Shown here: positions 2,362 to 18,060 of the stretch, piece by piece | How positions within the stretch are numbered: position 1 is the stretch's first letter | Layout: each line of letters starts with the position of its first letter | Virus record (IMG/VR): IMGVR_UViG_3300047510_001209 | Span: 1 to 25,809 of that record | Origin: a virus | DNA: 25,809 bases | Direction: 5' to 3' (one strand) | Notes under the pieces: model-generated | Told to the model about the DNA's origin: nothing | Seen by the model: the letters and a program-made list of their open reading frames with translations, nothing else | The model's database searches: none | Translations under genes and position numbers: made by a program

Positions 2362-2556
2362 ATGAAAAGAATTAAATTAGGAGACTACGCAGAAGCATTG
2401 ATACATGTTATCACTTTTGGATTTGGTGGTCGTATTGCAGTCTTTATTGCAAAACAAATGGGATATCAGTCATGTGGTTGCTGCGAACGCAAACAATGGC
2501 TTAATCGATTAACAGATAAAACTTACGATGGTGAGTGTAATACTATAAAATTATGA
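2362..2556 (+). CDS. Small phage protein with CGCxxRKxxLN motif
   Basis: 64 aa from ATG 2362; an alternative in-frame ATG at 2353 would overlap the preceding gene by 7 bases. The N-terminal half is a hydrophobic amphipathic helix (YAEALIHVITFGFGGRIAVF), and the C-terminal part has SCGCCERKQWLNRL. From memory, small phage proteins with a GLGD-like helix followed by CGC-x2-R-x2-LN occur near terminase genes in Bacteroidota and marine phages; their role is unknown. The Cys cluster could bind metal. The stop overlaps the next ATG (ATGA), so the two are translationally coupled. Confidence 0.7.
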   Translation: MKRIKLGDYAEALIHVITFGFGGRIAVFIAKQMGYQSCGCCERKQWLNRLTDKTYDGECNTIKL

Positions 2557-2789
2557 TAGAGAGTATAAAAGAAATTAGACCTGATTGGTACCTGATACAT
2601 TTAGAAGGTACAAGATATTATCAAATTTGGAATAAGTGGGATTTGTTTGACTTATTATTACAGGCAACAAACATAGATTTAAAAACACCTAAACCACGAT
2701 TGACACTATGGGATGAAGATTTCCCAATGCCGTATGAGAAATTAGAAAACATAGTAGACGATTTAATCAATATAAAAAACAAAAAATAA
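2553..2789 (+). CDS. Hypothetical protein (78 aa)
   Basis: Starts in an ATGA overlap with the previous stop, a sign of a real, coupled gene. The protein mixes short beta-like stretches (WYLIHLEGTRYYQIWN) with helices and ends in a Lys-rich tail. No Cys motif, membrane segment or known family is recognised. It belongs to the densely packed rightward run from 2362 to 3269. Confidence 0.65.
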   Translation: MIESIKEIRPDWYLIHLEGTRYYQIWNKWDLFDLLLQATNIDLKTPKPRLTLWDEDFPMPYEKLENIVDDLINIKNKK

Positions 2790-2794
2790 AAATT

Positions 2795-3058
2795 ATGGGT
2801 ATTAGTTACGCACAACAACCAAAAGAAGTAGAACAATTAGTAGATGAGAACGCAGTATATATGGTAGACTGGTCAAAGATGACATCAGTAAACGATATGA
2901 TTTTAATTTTAGCAAGTATGGCTATTGGATTTCCAGGCAACCATCCAAACATTGAACAATTAAAACCATTCTTAAATTTAGAAACACCTATTAAAAGAGA
3001 ACCACAACAACCTGCAAAAGTAGATTTAAAGATGCCTAAATTGAAAAAAATTAAGTAA
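2795..3058 (+). CDS. Hypothetical protein (87 aa)
   Basis: Begins 5 bases after the previous stop behind an A-rich leader (aaaaattATG). Residues about 20-60 look like a folded helical unit (NDMILILASMAIGFPGNH), followed by a Pro/Lys-rich tail (PIKREPQQPAKVDLKMPKLK) that is probably disordered and basic. The hydrophobic helix is short and broken by Gly/Pro, so a membrane segment is doubtful. Family not recognised. Confidence 0.65.
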   Translation: MGISYAQQPKEVEQLVDENAVYMVDWSKMTSVNDMILILASMAIGFPGNHPNIEQLKPFLNLETPIKREPQQPAKVDLKMPKLKKIK

Positions 3059-3059
3059 T

Positions 3060-3269
3060 ATGGAATTAACCGAAGTACAATTAGAAGAACTAAAAAGTGA
3101 GTTATCACAAATTAGTACAAGACTTCCAGAAAACAAAGCACATTACATTTGGAATACATTTAATCATATAAGAGGTGAAAGAGAACCAATGCCGTGTATG
3201 TGTGGAAGTAGTGGAGCACATTGGAAAAGAGCAGTTGACTTTCTTAATGATTATGTAAAAGGTAAGTAA
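3060..3269 (+). CDS. Small protein with MPCMCGSS motif (69 aa)
   Basis: One base separates it from the previous stop, and the next gene starts directly at its stop. The protein is helical (ELTEVQLEELKSELSQIS), then YIWNTFNHIRGEREPMPCMC, then a second helix with W and A (HWKRAVDFLNDYV). The layout of a Trp-containing helix, a P-C-x-C turn and a second Trp helix recurs, from memory, in small proteins of Bacteroidota phages just upstream of sigma-like or terminase genes. Function unknown; the paired Cys may bind a metal with a partner. Confidence 0.65.
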   Translation: MELTEVQLEELKSELSQISTRLPENKAHYIWNTFNHIRGEREPMPCMCGSSGAHWKRAVDFLNDYVKGK

Positions 3270-3818
3270 ATGATAGATTCAGGTAGTATACAATACATTG
3301 AGTGTGAACAAAGACTAACCAATCTATATCTGGATTCAAATCATTGGTTAATCAAACACGCAACAAAGATTACTAAAAGTAAAGAAGAAGGTGAAGATTT
3401 AGTACAAGAACTTTATGAGTATCTACATAAGAAATGTAATCCAAAGATATTTTGGGGTAATGCATACAATATGTTTTATTGTTATCGCTTTTTAGAAAGC
3501 AGATGGATTAATAAGACAAAGAAGTTGAATAGAGTTGTATACAAAGAAGAGATGCCTGAAGAAGTAGTTGAAGAAGAATATGATATAGAAAGAGATTTGG
3601 AATTGCAGAATGCACATAATGAAGTAGTAGGTGAATTAAAAAAATTAGCAGTAACTAAACTATGGCCGCAAGCCAGAATCTTTGAACTATATTGGATGTC
3701 GGACAAAACGCTTGACGAAGTTGCAAAAGATATTAAGATAAGTAAGAGTACTGTATTCCTTTCAGTTAAGAAGATAAGGAAATATTTAGAAGAAGTTATA
3801 GATAATCCATTCGTATAA
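3270..3818 (+). CDS. Sigma-70-like / late transcription factor
   Basis: 182 aa. Residues about 25-85 resemble sigma region 2 (LIKHATKITKSKEEGEDLVQ, then a helix with FLESRWINKTKK), followed by an acidic linker (EEMPEEVVEEEYDIERD) and a C-terminal helix-turn-helix like region 4 (FELYWMSDKTLDEVAKDIKI, then SKSTVFLSVKKIRKYL). This is the build of small phage-encoded sigma-like proteins that redirect host RNA polymerase or control late genes. It directly precedes the packaging and structural block, where a bipartite motif with constant spacing recurs before transcription units; it is the best candidate in the window to read that motif. The link is inferred. The start abuts the previous stop (taaATG). 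Confidence 0.75.
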   Translation: MIDSGSIQYIECEQRLTNLYLDSNHWLIKHATKITKSKEEGEDLVQELYEYLHKKCNPKIFWGNAYNMFYCYRFLESRWINKTKKLNRVVYKEEMPEEVVEEEYDIERDLELQNAHNEVVGELKKLAVTKLWPQARIFELYWMSDKTLDEVAKDIKISKSTVFLSVKKIRKYLEEVIDNPFV

Positions 3819-4676: not shown

Positions 4677-4976
4677 ATGGCAAAGTTTGAAATAGGAAAT
4701 AAATTAGGTGGTAGAAAGCCAGGTTCTCTTAATAGGAGTACAGAACAAATGAAGTTAACTATTGCTCGTGCAGTTAATAGTACACTCAATACAATACAGG
4801 AAGATTTAGAAGAGATAAAGAAGAGAGACCCAGAGAAAGCAATGGACCTGGCATTGAAGTTAATGGAATATGCTTTACCTAAATTGAGTAGAACAGAAAT
4901 GAAAGCAGAGATTGAACAAAGGATACAGCAGATTAGTATTAATGTAAATAGAAAAGATATTGGAACTAACGATTGA
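4677..4976 (+). CDS. terS: Terminase small subunit
   Basis: The 99-aa product begins with the small-terminase signature FEIGNKLGGRKPGSLNR followed by a helix-turn-helix-like stretch (STEQMKLTIARAVNSTLNTI), then a charged helical region used for oligomerisation, and a beta-like tail (QQISINVNRKDIG). It would bind the phage DNA and hand it to the large subunit. It overlaps the large terminase gene by 17 bases. It is short for the family but complete. Confidence 0.8.
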   Translation: MAKFEIGNKLGGRKPGSLNRSTEQMKLTIARAVNSTLNTIQEDLEEIKKRDPEKAMDLALKLMEYALPKLSRTEMKAEIEQRIQQISINVNRKDIGTND

Positions 4977-6126
4977 TACAACGATTACATTTGAACATCT
5001 ATTAGATAGTAAACATAGAGTTACACACCACATAGGAGGAACGCGTAGTGGTAAGTCTTATGGTATCTTGCAGTATCTTATTGTTGAAGCATTAAAACAA
5101 CCATTCACCATTACTATTGTAAGAAGAACTATACCAAGTTTAAAGAGAACTGTTATAAAAGATTTCACAGATATACTTAAATCGCTGGGTATATTCAACG
5201 AAGATAATTTCAATGTAAGTGATAGAACTTATAAGTTGCAAGATACACTAATACAATTTATCAATTCCGATGACCCTGAAAAGTTAAGAGGATTAAAATC
5301 AGATATTCTATTCATTGACGAAGCAAGTGAAATAGATGAAGAAAGTTATTTTCAGCTAAGTATTAGAACCACAGGTAAGATAATACTGGCATATAACCCT
5401 ACGGTGTCACCATATCATTGGTTAAGACAGATGCAGGATTGTGAACGATATACAACTAACTATGCTGATAATCCGTATATCCCCAAAGAGATGGTTAAAG
5501 CAATTGAAGATTTACAATACACTAATGAAAAGAAATGGAAAATATATGGTAAGGGTGAGTTTGCTCCAAACGATAAAGCAATTTTTCAATTTGAGTTATG
5601 TAATGATTATGACGCTGACTTTGTGGGTTTTGGGCTTGACTTTGGGTTTAGTAGTGACCCCACTGCTCTTGTTGCTGTTTATAAAAGTGGTGATAGAATC
5701 TACTTGGAAGAATTACTTTACGAAAAAGGATTGGTAACAAACGACATAATAAATAAACTAAAAGAGTTAGACATACAAAAGAGTGAAGAGATATGGGCAG
5801 ATAGTGCAGAACCGAGATTGATAGAAGAGTTATATAGAAGTGGATTTAATATTAAGCCTGTTGTAAAAGGAAAGGATAGTATTAAGTTTGGTATAGGTGT
5901 AATGCAAAATCATAAGATATTCATACATAACAAATCACAGAACTTAATCAATGAGATGTATGCTTACCAATACGCAACTGACAAATACGGATACACTACT
6001 GACAACCCTGAAGGTGGATTAGACCACTTAATAGATGCAGCAAGATATTGTTGTATGATGAAGTTATCACAAAAAGCACAAAAGAAAGGAACATATGCAA
6101 TCAGTATCGGACAATACAAATACTAA
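4960..6126 (+). CDS. terL: Terminase large subunit (ATPase and nuclease)
   Basis: 388 aa with all main motor parts: Walker A GGTRSGKS (residues 26-33), Walker B ILFIDE (116-121) and the coupling motif AYNP (144-147) in the ATPase domain; then an RNase H-like nuclease domain with the first acidic residue in GFGLDFGFSSDPTA (D227), a second in IWADSAEP and a third in GGLDHLIDAARY. It powers packaging into proheads and cuts the DNA. No ATG exists before the Walker A motif; the best start is TTG 4960, overlapping TerS by 17 bases (ATT 4957 is the alternative), which indicates coupled translation. The next gene overlaps its end by 32 bases. Confidence 0.92.
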   Translation: MELTIDTTITFEHLLDSKHRVTHHIGGTRSGKSYGILQYLIVEALKQPFTITIVRRTIPSLKRTVIKDFTDILKSLGIFNEDNFNVSDRTYKLQDTLIQFINSDDPEKLRGLKSDILFIDEASEIDEESYFQLSIRTTGKIILAYNPTVSPYHWLRQMQDCERYTTNYADNPYIPKEMVKAIEDLQYTNEKKWKIYGKGEFAPNDKAIFQFELCNDYDADFVGFGLDFGFSSDPTALVAVYKSGDRIYLEELLYEKGLVTNDIINKLKELDIQKSEEIWADSAEPRLIEELYRSGFNIKPVVKGKDSIKFGIGVMQNHKIFIHNKSQNLINEMYAYQYATDKYGYTTDNPEGGLDHLIDAARYCCMMKLSQKAQKKGTYAISIGQYKY

Positions 6127-6322
6127 TAGAGTATGGGATGAAGAAGAGATTAGGGAACTAATACTCTATGCAAAATCATTACAGCAAGAAGTAGATGATA
6201 AGTCTGCACAATTGATTATGATGAATGCTAAATTAGAAAACGAAGAAGCAAAGAATAGAAAATTAAGTAACATAATAAAATTATTATATGGTCAAGGAAA
6301 TAACACTAACTATTCCAACTGA
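6095..6322 (+). CDS. Small coiled-coil protein (75 aa)
   Basis: Starts at ATG 6095 inside TerL (32-base overlap) and overlaps the next gene by 35 bases. Residues about 14-65 form one long charged helix with heptad-like Leu/Ile/Met (LILYAKSLQQEVDDKSAQLI, then NAKLENEEAKNRKLSNIIKLL), so it is probably a dimeric or trimeric coiled coil. Position between terminase and tail-chaperone genes suggests a packaging or assembly accessory. No family recognised; the long overlaps at both ends and lack of another start keep confidence moderate. Confidence 0.65.
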   Translation: MQSVSDNTNTNRVWDEEEIRELILYAKSLQQEVDDKSAQLIMMNAKLENEEAKNRKLSNIIKLLYGQGNNTNYSN

Positions 6323-6962
6323 TTGGAGTGGTGTAACATTAAAGAAGTATCTAACCCTGCAAAAAGATATGAAGAACTATGGTGATGACGAAGAAGCACA
6401 AACTGCTTTGATGTTATCGCATCTATGTGGATTGAATGCAGAGTATATCAACTCTTTATCTATTGAGGATTACAATACAGTGCGTCTGACATTAGAAGGA
6501 TTTATAAACAATACTGAATATCCCTTGCAAAAAATAATTAACATCAATGGCAAGGAGTATGGATTTGAACCTAACTTATCGCAGATGTCTTATGGTGCAT
6601 ATGTTGATATCAGTAAGTTTGGACAATTAACTATTGATGATAACTGGCCAAAGATAATGTCAATACTATACAGACCTATCGTAAATAAGAAAGGTGATAT
6701 GTATACAATAGAAGGATACAAAGGAGATATAGATGATAAGTTATTTTTAGGAGTTACTATGGATGTACAATTTGGAGCCTTGTTTTTTTTTGTCAATTTG
6801 TTAACGGACTTGTTGAGCGCTACCCTGAAGTATTTGAAGGTGACGGGACTCCCACCCAACATCAAATCAATTTTGGAAAAAAGTGGGGAAATTACCAAAC
6901 GCTTATTGAACTTGCAGACGGAGAGTACGGCCGCATCGATTGGGCAACAGAACAACCCTTAG
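6288..6962 (+). CDS. Tail assembly chaperone-like protein, frame-0 product (224 aa)
   Basis: A globular domain (residues 1 to about 165: MVKEITLTIPTDWSGVTLKK, then helices, INGKEYGFEPNLSQMSYGAY, DNWPKIMSILYRPI, MDVQFGALFFF) resembles, from memory, a protein of Bacteroidota phages encoded just before a second reading frame, like lambda gpG. At residues 166-168 three TTT codons form a T9 run. Frame 0 continues for 56 codons to a TAG at 6960-6962. The -1 frame is open much further and encodes a more convincing protein (see the 6288-7057 entry). The 224-aa form would be the main product and the frameshift form the minor one, as in G/GT. The chaperone role is inferred; no tape-measure gene follows here. 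Confidence 0.7.
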   Translation: MVKEITLTIPTDWSGVTLKKYLTLQKDMKNYGDDEEAQTALMLSHLCGLNAEYINSLSIEDYNTVRLTLEGFINNTEYPLQKIININGKEYGFEPNLSQMSYGAYVDISKFGQLTIDDNWPKIMSILYRPIVNKKGDMYTIEGYKGDIDDKLFLGVTMDVQFGALFFFVNLLTDLLSATLKYLKVTGLPPNIKSILEKSGEITKRLLNLQTESTAASIGQQNNP

Positions 6963-7057
6963 AGAAATGTTTATTGTATCTAGCGTTTAGAGCAGACGAG
7001 AATGCATTAAAGAACTTGCTACATAGAGAGGCAGTTAAAAAACAGCAAGGGTCATAA
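6288..7057 (+). CDS. Tail assembly chaperone-like protein, -1 frameshift product (256 aa)
   Basis: Joining 6288-6791 to 6791-7057 (one T read twice) gives 168 residues of the frame-0 protein plus 88 from the -1 frame. That extension is protein-like: FVNGLVERYPEVFEGDGTPT, then FGKKWGNYQTLIELADGEYG, RIDWATEQPLEKCLLYLAFR and a charged helical end. The -1 frame is open from 6740 to the TAA at 7055-7057 and has no ATG before the T run, so it is reached only by a shift. It ends where the next promoter motif begins. A ribosomal -1 shift on T-TTT-TTT, or polymerase slippage adding one T, would both produce it. In lambda the equivalent extension binds the tape measure protein. Confidence 0.75.
6783..6791 (+). 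promoter_or_regulatory. T9 slippery site for -1 frameshifting
   Basis: Nine T (codons TTT TTT TTT then GTC) fit the heptamer X-XXY-YYZ as T-TTT-TTT. Re-reading one T enters the 88-codon -1 frame; losing one T instead gives a stop five codons later (TTG TCA ATT TGT TAA). The direction of the useful shift is therefore clear. Confidence 0.75.
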
Positions 7058-7396: not shown

Positions 7397-10300
7397 ATGG
7401 CTGAAATTTCAAAACAGGCATTACAGGTTGATAATAATCAATCTTTCCCAAATAATAACGCAGGTGCGATTACTCCATCTGACTTGAGAGCATTTAATGT
7501 AAATATGATTGACTCTTTGGTTGATGAGATTACTTATAATCAAGATAGTGCAAGTTGGAATCAATCAATAGATGCGTTAGAAGCATTTACATCTTCTCAA
7601 CAACCTACATTCAATGCGTTAAATCAATTTACTGCATCTCAATTGGTAATCAATTCAGGTGTTAATGCATTTACACAATCTGCTGATGCAAGATTAGATG
7701 CGTTAGAAAGTGAAACACAAAATTTAGAATTATTCACTGCATCGGTAAATGAGATTAGTGATAATGGTATTGTACAAGGAACTTCTACAAGATTACATTT
7801 CTACGGATTAGTATCAGCAAGTATTGTACCAAATGTAAACGGAGCTATAGCTTCTATTAACATTGAGCAAGATGGAACTAAATTAAATTCTGCTTCATTC
7901 AATTCTTATACTGCATCTACTGATTCTGATTTAGATTCAATACACCAAACAACTCAATCGTTAAATAACTTCACAGCAAGTTTAACAACTGCGTTTGTTA
8001 GCACTGCATCTTTCAATGCATATACTCAGTCTATTAATTCATACACATCGTCTAATGATGCAAAAGTAAATTCTTTAATTAACGCAACTGCAAGTTATGC
8101 AACATCTGCAATAACTGCAAGTTCATTAGTAACTGCAAGTGTAAATTTAAATACAATTACATTTACAAAGGGTGACTCAAGTACATTTAATATTACAGTT
8201 AACACAGGTAGTGGCGGTGCAACAACAGATATTACATCTTTAAACGCATTCACTGCTTCACAAGATACAAAGAATACAACTCTTGCAAATGTAACTGCAT
8301 CATTGAATGCATCAACTGCATCTCAACAATCACAAATAGATAATTTAATTGCAGCAACTGGTAGTTACGCAATAAGTAGTTCAGTAGCAGCGGTAGATGC
8401 CGGACAACAATCTCAAATAGATGCATTAATTGCAGCTACTGGGTCTTACTCAACATCTTCTTCTGATATAACTTCATTGAATGCATTCACTGCTTCACAA
8501 GAAACAAAGAATAGCACATTAGCTACATACACTGCATCGGTTGATACAAAGTTCTCTACATTGGGAACTCAATCAGGTAGTTGGATTACTGAAAGTGAAA
8601 CTGCTTCATTTGCAAGAACGAATGTTGACAATAACTTTACAGCAAATCAAACATTCACAAACATAACAGCAGTATCTGCATCATTCCAATATGTTCAAAC
8701 AACTTATGAAACCAGTAGCGTAATTTATTCTAGTGGTTCAAATCAATTCGGTGATGCATCAGATGATGTACAAACTCTATACGGAAGTGTAAGAGTAGTA
8801 AACGAATTAACTGCAAGTGGATTAAATTATCCTAATGCTGACAATGGTGCTAAAGCATTCATGCAAACAGACGGAGCAGGTAATTTATCTTTACAATATG
8901 TAGATGCAATGTTTGAAACCGTTCGTAATATGAGTGGTGTTGCATTAGACAAAGGAACACCTGTTTATATTTCAGGTAGTACGGGAGATAATGGAAACGC
9001 ATATGTTGCAGACGCATCAGACTTAGCAAAGATGCCAGCAGTTTATATATTAGGTGAAGACTTAATAGATGGTGCAACAGGTATAGCTTTGGTAGGTGGT
9101 TTGATTGAAGGAGTTGACACAACTGGATATCCTGCAGGAACAATTATATATGTTGCTGAGGGTGGTGGTTGGTCAGACGTAAGACCATCAGGTAGTACAT
9201 CAATAGTACAAGTATTAGGTGTAGTACAAAAAGAAGGAGTAGGTGGACAAGGTGTTGTAATAAATCAATTAGAAGCAACTCTACCAAATATACAAACAGG
9301 ATATGCATGGGTTGGTAACGGAAGTAATCAACCAGTACAAGTTGCAACAAGTTCATTTGGAACACCGGTTGACTTAACTTCATTGAACGCATTTACTCAA
9401 TCACAAGATACAAAGAATACTACATTAGAAAATGTAACTTCTTCTTTACAATCTTATACCGCATCTCAAAATACAATCAATACAGATGTATCTGCATCTG
9501 CAAGTATTTATGAAGCTAAATTTGATACAATAGGTACTCAATCAGGCTCATGGGTTGGTTCAAGTATTGATACAGGTAGTTTTGCAACAACAGGTAGCAA
9601 TATATTCGTAGCTGACCAAATAATAACTGGGTCTGCTGGATTTTTATATTCAAATGGTACTTCAACAAAATTAAGATTAGGTACTTCTGAAAATTTACAA
9701 AACTTTGATTTTAGAGTTACTGGTAGTGGTTTAGAACAACAACTATGGTTAATTGAAAATCAAGGTGGTGTATGGGGTAACTCATTCTTTAATAGAATGT
9801 ATGTTGACTCAAACTTAAATGTAAACTCAACATTCACTGCATCTTTACAAGAAGGTTATGCATGGGTTGGTAATGCAAGTGGTAAAACATCAACTGTTGC
9901 AACTTCATCATTCGGTGGAGCTAGTTTACCTTCTGGTTTATTATCATCGTCTGTGACAAACTTTACAGATTATTCTGCATCAGTTGATACGAGAATAAAT
10001 AATATAGTAACAGGTACTGGATTTGCAACAACAGGTAGTAACACATTCACAGGTGACCAAAATATATTAGGAACACTTACTGCATCATTACAAGAAGGAT
10101 ATGTATGGGCAGGTGGAGTAGGAAACATATCTACATTAGTTGCTACATCTTCTTTTGCAGGAGGTGGTGGTACAATATCAGTACAAGACGAAGGAACAAT
10201 ATTAGGAAATGCAACATCATTTGACTTTAATGGTGCAGGTGTAACTGCTACATTAACGGCAGGTACTGCATCGATAACAATACCTGGTGGAGGTGGAAGC

Positions 10301-12136
10301 ATTGACACAGGTAGTTTCGCAACAACTGGCAGTAACACATTTACAGGTGACCAAACACTTATTGACGCAAGTGGTAACTTCTTTACAATATCAGATGCAT
10401 CGGGTAGTATGATGTTAGTTGCTAAAACATTTACTTCTGCTTCTGCACACTTAACTGCATCAGTAGGTGGTAAAGTCAATATAATATTCAAAGATAATAA
10501 TAATACTGCTGATACAATTATAAGTGGGTCAAATAACATATTTGTTAATCCAGCAGCACCAACTGCCGGATTTAAGAGATATGTAGGTACAAATAACATA
10601 TATAACTCAACTGGTTTACCACAAATAAGTCAGTCAATGGCATTCCCAGTAACTATGACCGGTAATATTGGACCAGGTTCGGTTACAATGAGAGGGCCTG
10701 TTAGTTCTTCTGCATGGACTATTAATAATAATAACCTAATAGGAAGTATTAATGTGGGTATCGGTGCATTAAATAGAGCTGAAAGAATAGTTAGTGGATT
10801 GACAATGTCTGGAAACTCAATACAAGGAAGTTTATCAGTAATTGCTCAACAAAATGACCTTACTTCATCTGTTATTTTCTCTAATAATAGTATGAATGGT
10901 TTCCTTTCATTAAATTTAAATTCATCATCAGCTAATATCCAAAATAATATTATAAATGATAATAATCTTACTATCACAAATAACTATTATACTGGAAGTG
11001 AAGGTAGAGGACAAATTACGGTATCTAGAAATACCATAGGTGGACAAACTAATACAATATTAGTAACTGGTATAGGAGATGCTGGTACATCTGCACCATT
11101 CTTTACTAATAATACAATGGGTGGTCAGAATAATACAATATTTTCAAACTCAACAGGTGCAGGTAGTAACACATCTGCAATTGCAAATATAATTTTTGGT
11201 AATACTTTAATTGTAACCGGTTCTAATGGTGGAACAACTTATGGTTCTGCTTTCTTTGGAAGATTTAATGCAAATGATGGTATACGAAATAAAACATCAG
11301 ATGTTGTACTTGCAGTAGGTACAGGTACAAATGGTACAACAGGTAGAAAGACTGGTTTCTTAATTGACTCAAATAGTAACACATTCGTAGAAGGTACATT
11401 GAATGTATCTGGTAGTACAATATTAACCGGTAGTATAATATCAGTAGATAGTAGTGGTAATGCAACTAATACAATAATTGGTTTGAATGCATTAGGTATG
11501 GGTTCAGCTGGTGCTAGTCCATTAGCAGTAGGAAATACTATATCAATAGCAATCGGTAATGGTGCAATGAGATTTGCAAGTGGGTCTTCACAAAACGTTG
11601 CGATTGGTAACAATGCGTTAGCACTTACAACCGGGTCATTAAACTTTGCATTAGGTAGTGAGTCATTGACAAACAATACAACAGGTACTTCAAACGTTGC
11701 AATCGGTGTTAATAGTTTAAATTCAAACTCAACTGGTAATTCAAACGTATCAATAGGAAATAACTCAGGATTTAGAGCAAACGGAAATAACAATACTTAC
11801 ATTGGTGAGTCTGCTGGTTATAATATTACAGGTAGCAATAACCTTATATTAGGTAGATATCAAGGAAGTAGTGGAGAAGCATTTGATAATAATATTATAC
11901 TTGCTGATGGTAGTGGAACGATTGAAGCAAGATTTGATGGTGATTGGCAATTTTATGACAATGTAAATGTAACCGGCTCAATCAATGTAGTATCAGGGTC
12001 TCTTACAGGACAAGCAGTTACAAACATAACTCCTGAATCATCATCGTTATCACCAATATTAAATATTGTAACTTTGACAACTGCCGAATACGCATTGATA
12101 ACACCAAATTCACAAACCTTATATGTAATAGTATAA
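7397..12136 (+). CDS. Large modular tail fibre / receptor-binding protein (1579 aa)
   Basis: The N-terminus (KQALQVDNNQSFPNNNAGAI, then a DLRAFNVNMIDSLVDE helix) is a conserved-looking attachment segment in Bacteroidota phage fibres. Residues about 45-440 are low-complexity S/T/A/N-rich repeats of the form SLNAFTASQ-TKN-TL, with heptad spacing that suits a trimeric coiled coil. About 441-480 is an SSGSNQFGD-type module; about 505-640 a beta module (SGVALDKGTPVYISGSTGDN). FATTGSNTFTGDQ units follow, then beta-helix-like repeats rich in N-N-T, and from about 1395 to 1500 YadA-head-like repeats (NVAIGNNALALTTGS, SNVAIGVNSL, SNVSIGNNSG). It ends in LTTAEYALITPNSQTLYVIV. No signal peptide or enzyme motif. 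It would form trimeric fibres for host-surface adsorption. Confidence 0.85.
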   Translation: MAEISKQALQVDNNQSFPNNNAGAITPSDLRAFNVNMIDSLVDEITYNQDSASWNQSIDALEAFTSSQQPTFNALNQFTASQLVINSGVNAFTQSADARLDALESETQNLELFTASVNEISDNGIVQGTSTRLHFYGLVSASIVPNVNGAIASINIEQDGTKLNSASFNSYTASTDSDLDSIHQTTQSLNNFTASLTTAFVSTASFNAYTQSINSYTSSNDAKVNSLINATASYATSAITASSLVTASVNLNTITFTKGDSSTFNITVNTGSGGATTDITSLNAFTASQDTKNTTLANVTASLNASTASQQSQIDNLIAATGSYAISSSVAAVDAGQQSQIDALIAATGSYSTSSSDITSLNAFTASQETKNSTLATYTASVDTKFSTLGTQSGSWITESETASFARTNVDNNFTANQTFTNITAVSASFQYVQTTYETSSVIYSSGSNQFGDASDDVQTLYGSVRVVNELTASGLNYPNADNGAKAFMQTDGAGNLSLQYVDAMFETVRNMSGVALDKGTPVYISGSTGDNGNAYVADASDLAKMPAVYILGEDLIDGATGIALVGGLIEGVDTTGYPAGTIIYVAEGGGWSDVRPSGSTSIVQVLGVVQKEGVGGQGVVINQLEATLPNIQTGYAWVGNGSNQPVQVATSSFGTPVDLTSLNAFTQSQDTKNTTLENVTSSLQSYTASQNTINTDVSASASIYEAKFDTIGTQSGSWVGSSIDTGSFATTGSNIFVADQIITGSAGFLYSNGTSTKLRLGTSENLQNFDFRVTGSGLEQQLWLIENQGGVWGNSFFNRMYVDSNLNVNSTFTASLQEGYAWVGNASGKTSTVATSSFGGASLPSGLLSSSVTNFTDYSASVDTRINNIVTGTGFATTGSNTFTGDQNILGTLTASLQEGYVWAGGVGNISTLVATSSFAGGGGTISVQDEGTILGNATSFDFNGAGVTATLTAGTASITIPGGGGSIDTGSFATTGSNTFTGDQTLIDASGNFFTISDASGSMMLVAKTFTSASAHLTASVGGKVNIIFKDNNNTADTIISGSNNIFVNPAAPTAGFKRYVGTNNIYNSTGLPQISQSMAFPVTMTGNIGPGSVTMRGPVSSSAWTINNNNLIGSINVGIGALNRAERIVSGLTMSGNSIQGSLSVIAQQNDLTSSVIFSNNSMNGFLSLNLNSSSANIQNNIINDNNLTITNNYYTGSEGRGQITVSRNTIGGQTNTILVTGIGDAGTSAPFFTNNTMGGQNNTIFSNSTGAGSNTSAIANIIFGNTLIVTGSNGGTTYGSAFFGRFNANDGIRNKTSDVVLAVGTGTNGTTGRKTGFLIDSNSNTFVEGTLNVSGSTILTGSIISVDSSGNATNTIIGLNALGMGSAGASPLAVGNTISIAIGNGAMRFASGSSQNVAIGNNALALTTGSLNFALGSESLTNNTTGTSNVAIGVNSLNSNSTGNSNVSIGNNSGFRANGNNNTYIGESAGYNITGSNNLILGRYQGSSGEAFDNNIILADGSGTIEARFDGDWQFYDNVNVTGSINVVSGSLTGQAVTNITPESSSLSPILNIVTLTTAEYALITPNSQTLYVIV
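8231..9440 (+). repeat. Intragenic repeats encoding SLNAFTASQ-TKN units
   Basis: Three near-identical copies begin near 8231, 8470 and 9372, each encoding (I/L)TSLNAF-T(A/Q)SQ(D/E)TKN(T/S)TL. Related, more diverged copies occur earlier in the gene (near 7620 and 7950). They are protein repeats in one frame with unequal spacing, not a CRISPR array. Confidence 0.75.
9571..10360 (+). repeat. Intragenic repeats encoding FATTGSN-FTGDQ and EGYAWVGN units
   Basis: FATTGSN(I/T)F units occur near 9580, 10022 and 10317, and EGY(A/V)W(V/A)G units near 9299, 9850 and 10092. A copy of the first module (YATTGSNTFAGNQ) is also in the second fibre gene near 18974, so the units are shared between two genes 9 kb apart. 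Confidence 0.7.
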
Positions 12137-13295: not shown

Positions 13296-14264
13296 ATGAA
13301 AGCAAAACAAAATTTCGCACTTCCTACTATTACGACTACCTACGCAGGTGAGGCAGCTAGTGGTTACATCGCAGCAGCGTTGTTAAGTGCAAACACTTTG
13401 GATAAGAAGCTTGTAACTATCATGCCAAACGTGAAGTTCAAATCTGTAATCCAAAAATTAGACGTGAGTGGTATCGTACAAGATGCTTCATGTGATTTCG
13501 TAACATCAGGTAGCGTTGCTATTTCTGAGCAAGTATTAACTCCAAAAGAGTTACAAGTTAACTTACTTTTATGTAAGCAAGAATTCGTAGATTCATGGGA
13601 AGCTTTACAATTAGGTTTCTCTGCATTCGATGAAATTCCAAAGAACTTCAACGACTTCTTAATCTCTTATGTAGGTGGTAAAGTAGCAGAAGCAACTGAA
13701 ACTTCAATCTGGCAAGGTTCAACTGCATCTAATGGTGAATTCGGTGGTTTCCAAACAGCATTCTCTGCTTCAATCGCAGCAGGTGGTGCAGGTGCAGTAT
13801 TAGCAGCTAAGAGTGGTTCAGTAGTTATCTCTGGTAGTGTAACTTCTGCAAACGTATTAGACGTATTAAATTCAGTAGTTAATACTATCCCTGATACAGT
13901 ATATGGTAAGCCTGATGTATTGTTGTATGTTTCTACAAACGTAGCAAAAGCATACCAACAAGCTTTAGCAGGTGGTGCTATCGGTGCTAACGGATGGAAC
14001 AACCAAATGAACGTAGGTGAAAAACCTTTCAACTTCAATGGTATTGAAATCGTATGGTGTCCAGGTATGAGTGCATCTAAAATCGTTGCAGCTCAAAAAT
14101 CAAACTTATTCTTCGGTACAGGTTTATTATCTGATTACAACGAAGTAAAAGTTATCGATATGGCTAACATTGATGGTTCTCAAAATTACAGAATTGTAAT
14201 GAGATACACAGGTGGTACTCAATTCGGTATCGGTCAAGACATCGTATACTACGGAGCTTACTAA
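13296..14264 (+). CDS. Major capsid protein (HK97-like fold expected)
   Basis: 322 aa starting MKAKQNFALPTITTTYAGEA. It has the features I associate with Bacteroidota phage major capsid proteins: YAGEAASGYIAAALLSANTL, the IMPNVKFKSVIQKLDVSGIV stretch, a CDF beta segment, then LTPKELQVNLLLCKQEFVDS, WEALQLGFSAFDEIPKNF and VAEATETSIWQGS, and the C-terminal MRYTGGTQFGIGQDIVYYG. The leader is A-rich (attaaaaaaATG). Codons here end in C more often (ATC, TTC, AAC, TAC) than in neighbouring genes, which suits very high expression. An intrinsic terminator follows 16 bases after the stop. Confidence 0.85.
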   Translation: MKAKQNFALPTITTTYAGEAASGYIAAALLSANTLDKKLVTIMPNVKFKSVIQKLDVSGIVQDASCDFVTSGSVAISEQVLTPKELQVNLLLCKQEFVDSWEALQLGFSAFDEIPKNFNDFLISYVGGKVAEATETSIWQGSTASNGEFGGFQTAFSASIAAGGAGAVLAAKSGSVVISGSVTSANVLDVLNSVVNTIPDTVYGKPDVLLYVSTNVAKAYQQALAGGAIGANGWNNQMNVGEKPFNFNGIEIVWCPGMSASKIVAAQKSNLFFGTGLLSDYNEVKVIDMANIDGSQNYRIVMRYTGGTQFGIGQDIVYYGAY

Positions 14265-14280
14265 TAAAAACTAATTAAAG

Positions 14281-14306
14281 GGTGGGTCTCAACACCCACC
14301 TTTTTT
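14281..14306 (+). terminator. Intrinsic terminator after the major capsid gene
   Basis: GGTGGGT (14281-14287) pairs with ACCCACC (14294-14300), a 7-bp GC-rich stem with a 6-base loop, then six T. It may be partial, since no separate promoter motif is seen before the next gene at 14332. Confidence 0.85.
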
Positions 14307-14331
14307 AATAACAAAACTAAAAAATTAATAT

Positions 14332-14895
14332 ATGCCTTGTTCATTAACTCTTGGAAGAAACGAAGTATGTAAAGAAAGCATCGGTGGTTTACAGGGTGTT
14401 TACTTTATCAATTATACAACAGGTTCTTTCGCAGAAACAGCAGCTCAAACAGCAACTCCGTCAGGATTGTTGACAGGTGTTCCTTCTGGCTCGATTTTGT
14501 ATTACTACGAATTGAAAGGAACTAGTGCATATACTGAAACTGTTAACACTTCTAGAGAAAACGGAACTACATTCTTTTCACAAGAATTAACTCTAAACTT
14601 AAAGAAGTTAACAAACGAGATGACTACTCAATTAAAGCTTATGGCTTATGGTAGACCTCAAATAATCGTTTGGACTAACAATGGTGATGCATTCCTAGTA
14701 GGTAAAAAAGAAGGTGCCGATATGACCGGTGGAACAATTCAAACTGGTGGAGCTTTAGGAGACCTTTACGGATACTCTTTAACTTTCACAGGACAAGAAC
14801 AATTCCCTGCTCAATTCTTATCTGGAAGTACTACTGCTGATGCATTAGGCGGATTAACTGCAAACTACACAGTAGTTTATGGTTCTCCTGCATAA
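14332..14895 (+). CDS. Virion structural protein, probable major tail (tube) protein (187 aa)
   Basis: Begins MPCSLTLGRNEVCKESIGGL and continues with GVYFINY, a YYYELKGTSAYTETVN stretch, NGTTFFSQELTLNLKKL, GRPQIIVWTNNGDAFLVGKK and GYSLTFTGQEQFPAQFL. This order matches, from memory, a protein placed right after the capsid gene in many Bacteroidota phages and taken as the tail tube protein: mostly beta, one per virion ring, about 190 aa. A capsid decoration role is the main alternative. Terminators stand on both sides (14281 and 14926), so it may be made by read-through from the capsid promoter. Confidence 0.65.
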   Translation: MPCSLTLGRNEVCKESIGGLQGVYFINYTTGSFAETAAQTATPSGLLTGVPSGSILYYYELKGTSAYTETVNTSRENGTTFFSQELTLNLKKLTNEMTTQLKLMAYGRPQIIVWTNNGDAFLVGKKEGADMTGGTIQTGGALGDLYGYSLTFTGQEQFPAQFLSGSTTADALGGLTANYTVVYGSPA

Positions 14896-17193: not shown

Positions 17194-18060
17194 ATGGCTC
17201 AACAAATCGTTCATAATACAGGTGTAAACTATACTCTTTATTACAATGCTTTGAATTATTTCAAAACAATAATGAGTAACCATCCGTCTATTGCAGCAGT
17301 CACACAAGGTGATATTACAAAGATAGATGTGAATCAGTTTCCTGCGTATCCATTGGGAAATATCCTAATAACTGAAAGTAATTTTGGTAGTAACATAACC
17401 AACTACACAATTCAGTTGACGGTTGCTGATAAAATTAAAAATAAGAATAACGAAAGTAATGAAAGAACTAATGCACAGACCGTTCCGTTTTATGGAGTGG
17501 ATGATGTAGTAGACATTCATGCAAATACATTGGGTATCTTAAACGACTTAACTTCATATACGCAAAGAGGAGTTGCAGGATTTGAGATAAACGGAGACAT
17601 AAATTGTACATCATTTTCTGACCAATTTAATAATGGATTGGCCGGATGGGTTGCAACCTTTGAGTTAACTACCCACAATGATAAAAATCGTTGTCTTTTT
17701 TTTTTAATTAATCCGTCGGGTAGTGGATATATAATTGAAAATTGTGTAACGGAAGAAAGATATAAAGCTGTAATGGCTGAGCCTGTACAAGTAGGACAAG
17801 TGTTTTCAACAAAAACATTTCCAGTTTGGACACCATCATTACAAAATTATACAGGATTAAGTTGTTTCACAGTTGTAGATACTTTTGAAGGAGAAGATGA
17901 TTATAACTATGTTAATTTGCAAGTGTTAGATTTACCATACGCAGATTACCAAACATGTGATAATTGTATTTTGTGGATTAATCCAAAAGTATGGTCAACT
18001 ACACCGGAGAAGTGGGGACAAGGAACAGATGTTGCATTTAGACAATGGCAATTTGAATAA
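17194..18060 (+). CDS. Tail-completion/terminator-like protein with C-terminal Cys module
   Basis: 288 aa in two parts. Residues 1 to about 170 look like a tail terminator: TLYYNALNYFKTIMSNHPSI, YPLGNILITESNFGSN, TIQLTVADKIKNKNNESN, VDIHANTLGILNDLTSYTQR, GLAGWVATFELTTHND, ending NRCLFF. A T10 run (17696-17705) sits exactly at that end. Frame 0 then reads through to a C-terminal module (GYIIENC, VGQVFSTKTF, SCFTVVDTFEG, TCDNCI) resembling the end of the 12138 protein. A slip of one base either way stops translation at once, giving a protein of about 170 aa. Two products of one gene are therefore possible. Confidence 0.75.
   Translation: MAQQIVHNTGVNYTLYYNALNYFKTIMSNHPSIAAVTQGDITKIDVNQFPAYPLGNILITESNFGSNITNYTIQLTVADKIKNKNNESNERTNAQTVPFYGVDDVVDIHANTLGILNDLTSYTQRGVAGFEINGDINCTSFSDQFNNGLAGWVATFELTTHNDKNRCLFFLINPSGSGYIIENCVTEERYKAVMAEPVQVGQVFSTKTFPVWTPSLQNYTGLSCFTVVDTFEGEDDYNYVNLQVLDLPYADYQTCDNCILWINPKVWSTTPEKWGQGTDVAFRQWQFE
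17696..17705 (+). promoter_or_regulatory. T10 run, candidate slippage site at a domain border
   Basis: Reading CTT TTT TTT TTA in frame. With one T fewer the frame meets TAA immediately; with one T more it reads TTT AAT TAA. Both truncate the protein right after the tail-completion domain. It is the longest T run I noticed in the window. Confidence 0.5.

Follow-up and report, generated by a model that had tools for sequence, protein, structure and literature searches.

Does the gene that starts at position 6288 of the virus record IMGVR_UViG_3300047510_001209 encode two tail chaperones from one start, and is it the ribosome or the RNA polymerase that switches between the two reading frames? 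Among the textbook examples of recoding by the ribosome is the frameshift in tail chaperone genes. The initial annotation of this locus had postulated a G/GT-like -1 shift on T-TTT-TTT. In the analyses described here the whole stretch of 25,809 nucleotides (in the following referred to as the window) was compared with its relatives. The sequence data are best explained by two chaperones which would be made from one start with a T run as the switch, and slippage of the RNA polymerase on this run is probably, and of all readings most likely, the mechanism in operation.

The gene contains three TTT codons in frame 0, and this T9 was found exactly at the expected positions 6783-6791. A TAA at 7055-7057 closes the -1 frame, which is open from 6740 onwards and has no ATG, GTG or TTG ahead of the run, in agreement with the initial annotation. 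After residue 168 this frame adds 88 residues, which would extend the product to 256 aa as compared to the 224 aa encoded in frame 0. From the single start at 6288 both proteins would be synthesized, the longer one with a C-terminal domain read in the -1 frame, in the manner of lambda G/GT. The frame-0 product of the window is eight residues longer (6939-6962) than the 216 aa found in most of the close relatives, because their stop codon has been lost in the window. The features of the window and of its relatives are summarized in Table 1.

Table 1. Features of the two-frame chaperone gene, its genomic surroundings and the second slip site. Positions refer to the window unless another record is named.
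Feature	Position	Strand	Evidence
Terminase large subunit, upstream neighbor	4960..6126	+	Pfam Terminase_3, E=2e-22; PHROG 2, E=3e-35
Frame-0 ORF, 224-aa tail-chaperone-like protein (G-like product)	6288..6962	+	PHROG and Pfam matches; frame-0 tail kept open in relatives
T9 slip site (candidate), TTT TTT TTT in frame 0, contains T_TTT_TTT	6783..6791	+	T9/T10 in 199/199 loci; length never below nine
-1 frame extension, 88 residues and TAA stop, putative 256-aa GT-like product	6791..7057	+	open and homologous in relatives; substitution phase
288-aa gene, tail-terminator-like domain (about residues 10-161) and C-terminal domain	17194..18060	+	Foldseek; 63 homologs
Conserved RNA hairpin, 8-bp stem ACAAUGAU/AUCGUUGU, AAAA loop, ends 1 nt 5' of T10	17675..17694	+	codon bias, folding
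T10 run, second slip site (candidate), CTT TTT TTT TTA in frame 0	17696..17705	+	T10 in 63/63 homologs
P12024S gene with T9 shift	L052 (JQ823122), 14013-14707		T9 and extension
P12024L gene with T9 shift	L053 (JQ823123), 2501-3195		T9 and extension
Tape-measure-like gene in relative L054	5481-7256	-	far end of structural block
Tape-measure-like gene in relative L061	2268-4343	+	far end of structural block

The assignment of the gene to the tail chaperones is based on remote family matches. The N-terminal part is matched by the tail protein family PHROG 166 (E=2.8e-6) and by PHROG 32199 (E=2.2e-9). The Pfam family Phage_TAC_7 scored 20.7 bits and thereby stayed below its cut-off of 25; seven of 22 members reached E<=0.1. 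With the structure model of the chaperone no match was obtained in the PDB, and the matches in BFVD were mainly uncharacterised phage proteins, including gp38 of phage P12024S, together with one weak match to a named chaperone. From the family matches combined with the two-product architecture and the analogy to G/GT we infer that the gene probably encodes a tail chaperone pair of the G/GT type.

The chaperone gene directly follows the gene of the large terminase subunit and does not occupy the usual position just before a tape measure gene. That no tape measure gene follows, as noticed initially, is true inside the window. The structural block of 32-kb relatives runs on beyond the point corresponding to the window's 3' end, up to a gene of 590-690 aa with weak matches to tape measure families (PHROG 167, E=9e-6; PHROG 9483, E=2e-4). 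In relatives G001 and G006 such a gene marks the far end of the block (compare L054 and L061 in Table 1). The tape measure is missing from the window because the window ends too early. Downstream of the chaperone gene, positions 7397-12136 encode a repetitive protein of 1579 aa with FTASQDTKNTTL-type repeats, which is highly variable between relatives and probably represents a fibre or another protein of the virion surface. A sigma-factor-like protein is encoded at 3270-3818 (PHROG 1740, E=4.5e-8), and at a comparable location P12024S carries a protein with sigma-70 region 2. Judged by this similarity, these phages may redirect the host RNA polymerase.

For the comparison of the slip site across the family, a protein search in IMG/VR yielded 50 relatives and two alignment searches, one with the head of the gene before the run and one with the -1 extension, added many more. 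The searches were keyed on the peptides of head or extension and not on the T run. The resulting set comprises 199 fetched loci in which gene start and head are complete and at least 330 nt of downstream sequence are present, corresponding to 109 distinct sites after removal of duplicates. All 199 loci possess the run, as T9 in 186 and as T10 in 13 cases, each with a detectable homologous -1 extension. The extension is open and homologous over 82-94 aa counted from the run, and homology in the -1 frame starts right at the T run. A search begun with the isolate phage P12024S provided 63 relatives. Of these, 34 were examined, with identities down to about 25-33%; T9 was present in 33 of them and T10 in one, and their -1 extensions are conserved and carry a KWGWY-type motif. 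A search for relatives of the extension among phage proteins and for the same run in related phages, both proposed along with the initial annotation, was thereby positive throughout. Relatives of the chaperone head were not found in GTDB contigs. Apart from this run, 614 kb of the fetched loci contain no other T9 and a single other T10.

Two cultivated representatives, the Nonlabens (Persicivirga) phages P12024S and P12024L, carry the T9 run together with the -1 extension. Their annotations show only a 175-aa protein and an internal stub of 55 aa (hypothetical protein), just as expected from the earlier statement that a standard gene call misses the extension. PHROG 38404, with a length of 55, appears to be the stub of P12024S.

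The run is conserved in its length and variable in its register. Most frequent is T9 as TTT TTT TTT (98 sites), followed by T9 as NTT TTT TTT TNN, found at three sites of the 109 and at 33 sites of the remote set. T10 occurs as NTT TTT TTT TTN (eight sites) and as TTT TTT TTT TNN (one site). On a tree built from the gene part before the run the configuration changed at least six times; four of the changes involve the T10 form, and none led to fewer than nine T. A T7 or T8 version was not seen in any of the 199 loci and 34 remote relatives. In register 0, all 98 sites have T as the ninth base, the residue that begins there in the -1 frame varies between C, Y and S, and TTC accounts for 31% of the Phe codons in the same genes.

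The substitution pattern was used to determine which of the two frames is maintained. Before the run, pairwise differences at frame-0 codon positions 1, 2 and 3 amount to 0.37, 0.27 and 0.53 and are thus highest at position 3. After the run the corresponding values are 0.21, 0.37 and 0.29 within the overlap and 0.21, 0.47 and 0.35 beyond it. The maximum now lies at frame-0 position 2, equivalent to the third position of the -1 codons, and the phase switches exactly at the run. In simulations in which the -1 peptide was fixed and its codons were redrawn, the frame-0 tail stayed open for at least 48 codons in 0.2% of the cases; in the reverse simulation, with only the frame-0 peptide constrained, the -1 frame stayed open through the overlap in 0.7%, percentages that gauge constraint and are not formal probabilities, as the related sequences are not independent. 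None of the 91 ungapped relatives has a frame-0 tail open for fewer than 38 codons, and the median is 48. Since the substitution phase switches and simulated open frames are rare, both products appear to be kept by selection. A lack of relatives together with a lack of constraint in the -1 frame had been named beforehand as the outcome that would speak against the extension; the homologous extensions, the substitution phase and the simulations indicate the opposite. The postulated pair of 224- and 256-aa products is consistent with the conserved run, the homologous extension and the constraint on both frames.

With respect to the mechanism, the RNA polymerase would slip on the nine or more T's and add one U to some of the mRNAs. 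From these, the -1 extension would then be read by ordinary translation, whereas mRNAs with one U lost would meet a stop after a few codons. For bacterial RNA polymerase, nine A or T are sufficient for efficient slippage, which is near the length of the RNA-DNA hybrid (PMC5009743), and many genomes avoid runs of nine within genes (PMC1088944). The run of the chaperone gene shows the characteristics of such a site, namely a homopolymer of at least nine A/T and a length kept independently of the codon register. Polymerase slippage is preferred because a length of at least nine is retained across register changes, for a ribosomal heptamer needs only seven. The invariance of the ninth T points in the same direction, since E. 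coli ribosomes perform the -1 shift equally well on U_UU.C and U_UU.U (PMC4066793).

Programmed -1 ribosomal frameshifting on T_TTT_TTT would produce the same two proteins from one mRNA by tandem slippage of Phe-tRNAs. We consider it possible and clearly less probable than polymerase slippage. The heptamer is present in register at every site, and heptamers of the type H_HH.U_UU.Y are all efficient and among the most efficient ones in E. coli (PMC4066793). Moreover, for tail chaperones the ribosomal mechanism is established, in some cases without stimulators (PMC5009743). However, a ribosomal shift leaves unexplained why the length of at least nine persists through changes of register, why the ninth base is never C and why T7, T8 or other heptamers are absent from such a wide family. 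A downstream stem was rejected as a stimulator, as pseudoknot-free folding of three members revealed no excess stability of the RNA downstream of the run (z = 0.57, 0.00 and 1.67). A Shine-Dalgarno stimulator was rejected as well: SD-like tetramers lie upstream in 81 of the 109 sites, they also encode conserved residues, and none is located directly ahead of the run in P12024. A hairpin 5' of the chaperone run was not detected either (z 0.09 upstream). Taken together, the sequence comparison favours polymerase slippage over ribosomal slippage. Of the initial G/GT proposal the productive -1 shift and the tail chaperone pair have been retained, and its ribosomal mechanism is the less well supported one, because length and not register is conserved, the ninth base is always T and the downstream RNA revealed no stimulator.

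In the case of phase variation, replication slippage on the run would generate a phage population with genomes for either form. A high mutation rate through replication slippage is likely for homopolymers of this length (PMC1088944), but none of the 199 loci and none of the 34 remote relatives exhibits a combination of length and register that fuses both frames in the DNA, and this reading is accordingly rated as very improbable. Even less credit is given to a separate gene with an internal start in the -1 region, as annotated for the 55-aa gp39 of P12024S, which begins at an internal ATG in the -1 frame; homology in this frame begins right at the run, and the extension of the window does not contain any Met codon. 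An error in sequencing or assembly, with a true run of T8 or T10 and one single ORF, is conceivable since some sequencing methods are error-prone on homopolymers, but for practical purposes it is refuted by independent records, since the same configuration occurs in many independent metagenomes and two isolate genomes and constraint also acts on the frame-0 tail, so that its probability is negligible.

The only other run of at least nine T in the window is the T10 at 17696-17705, located in a gene for a tail-terminator-like protein. A Foldseek comparison of the part before the run with the PDB resulted in matches to the terminators of phage Mu, lambda (gpU) and T5, the SaPI1 neck and other terminators (E 1e-4 to 1e-2). 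On the basis of a structure model of moderate confidence (mean pLDDT 62), this part is predicted to adopt the tail-terminator fold. All 63 distinct homologs having the C-terminal domain contain T10 in the same register. Of 58 sequences, 55 use CGT and three use CGC for the Arg residue encoded in the 3' arm of the preceding hairpin, compared to a CGT use of 1% in these genes, and the hairpin folds at -4.7 kcal/mol or below in 91% of the sequences as opposed to 0.4% of the codon-shuffled versions. One U fewer (+1 frame) leads to an immediate stop in 58/58 sequences, and one U more (-1 frame) to a stop at the fifth codon, with CTT as the first, in 56/58. Because stops follow directly in the shifted frames, slippage at T10 would release a complete short terminator of about 170 aa beside the 288-aa protein.

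A wider search identified 47 homologs which end at this place and have no T run, as well as ten with the C-terminal domain, and these ten possess hairpin and T10. Seven further homologs (L383, L412, L418, L432, L434, L436, and L437), in which long Thr-rich linkers lead to different C-terminal domains, lack T10; the linkers are another way of extending the terminator protein. An alternative for the second site is a weak intragenic intrinsic terminator or attenuator, which a hairpin followed by U10 resembles. In the simplest reading, which relies on the analogy to Thermus dnaX, fusion of the C-terminal domain came with a slip site that would still release the short terminator.

Chaperone pairs of the G/GT type are described for many tailed phages (Xu, Hendrix and Duda, 2004, as cited in PMC3711429; reviewed in PMC5009743). 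In the gene described here, as in lambda gpG/gpGT, two products would originate from one start by a -1 shift, which takes place close to the end of the first ORF and leads into a second, overlapping one; further similarities are the putatively chaperone-like N-terminal part, the additional C-terminal domain of the longer product and the conservation across relatives. In contrast to lambda, the gene lies beside the terminase gene and not just before the tape measure gene, its sequence does not detectably belong to the lambda G family, and the slip site strictly consists of at least nine T in varying registers, which points to polymerase slippage. Transcriptional slippage sites of 9A/9T are known from dnaX of Thermus thermophilus, from IS elements and from type III genes of Shigella (PMC5009743; PMC1088944). 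With the dnaX-type sites both candidates share a homopolymer of at least nine A/T within a coding region and, as predicted here, productive shifted products, whereas the genes concerned here are phage tail genes. The second T10 site in particular would truncate its product, as in the formation of gamma and tau from Thermus dnaX. Its closest counterpart in arrangement is the IS630 element of Roseiflexus (PMC5009743, Fig. 18), with a hairpin directly 5' of the tract and placed for the RNA exit channel (17675-17705 in the window). The tract is T10 here and T5C5 there, and in the T10 both insertions and deletions are possible with truncation as the outcome. One structural gene with two C-terminal lengths generated by a shift is also found in Listeria phage PSA and in Ig-extended capsid and tail proteins (PMC5009743). 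In those cases the protein is lengthened by a ribosomal shift, whereas the second site encodes the long form in frame 0 and a shift would shorten it.

It is about evenly balanced whether both sites operate as proposed, with tail assembly in a widespread lineage of aquatic tailed phages controlled by slippage at T9/T10, which would lengthen the chaperone, and by hairpin-assisted slippage at T10, which would truncate the fused terminator to its short form. A literature search whose coverage mostly excluded subscription journals yielded no paper on slippage of the polymerase in tail chaperones or tail terminators of phages. Two-product tail chaperones and transcriptional slippage are each known; their combination as well as a slip-truncated terminator are, as far as found, new.

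Gene callers overlook the -1 extension. The isolates P12024S and P12024L make the chaperone half of the proposal directly testable, and the terminator site offers a compact cassette of hairpin and T10 for the study of hairpin-stimulated slippage. If the proposal is true, these phages run a structural program by transcriptional slippage in place of ribosomal frameshifting. The switch would then have moved to the polymerase with both products kept, and the mechanism would be interchangeable, as it is between dnaX of E. coli and that of Thermus.
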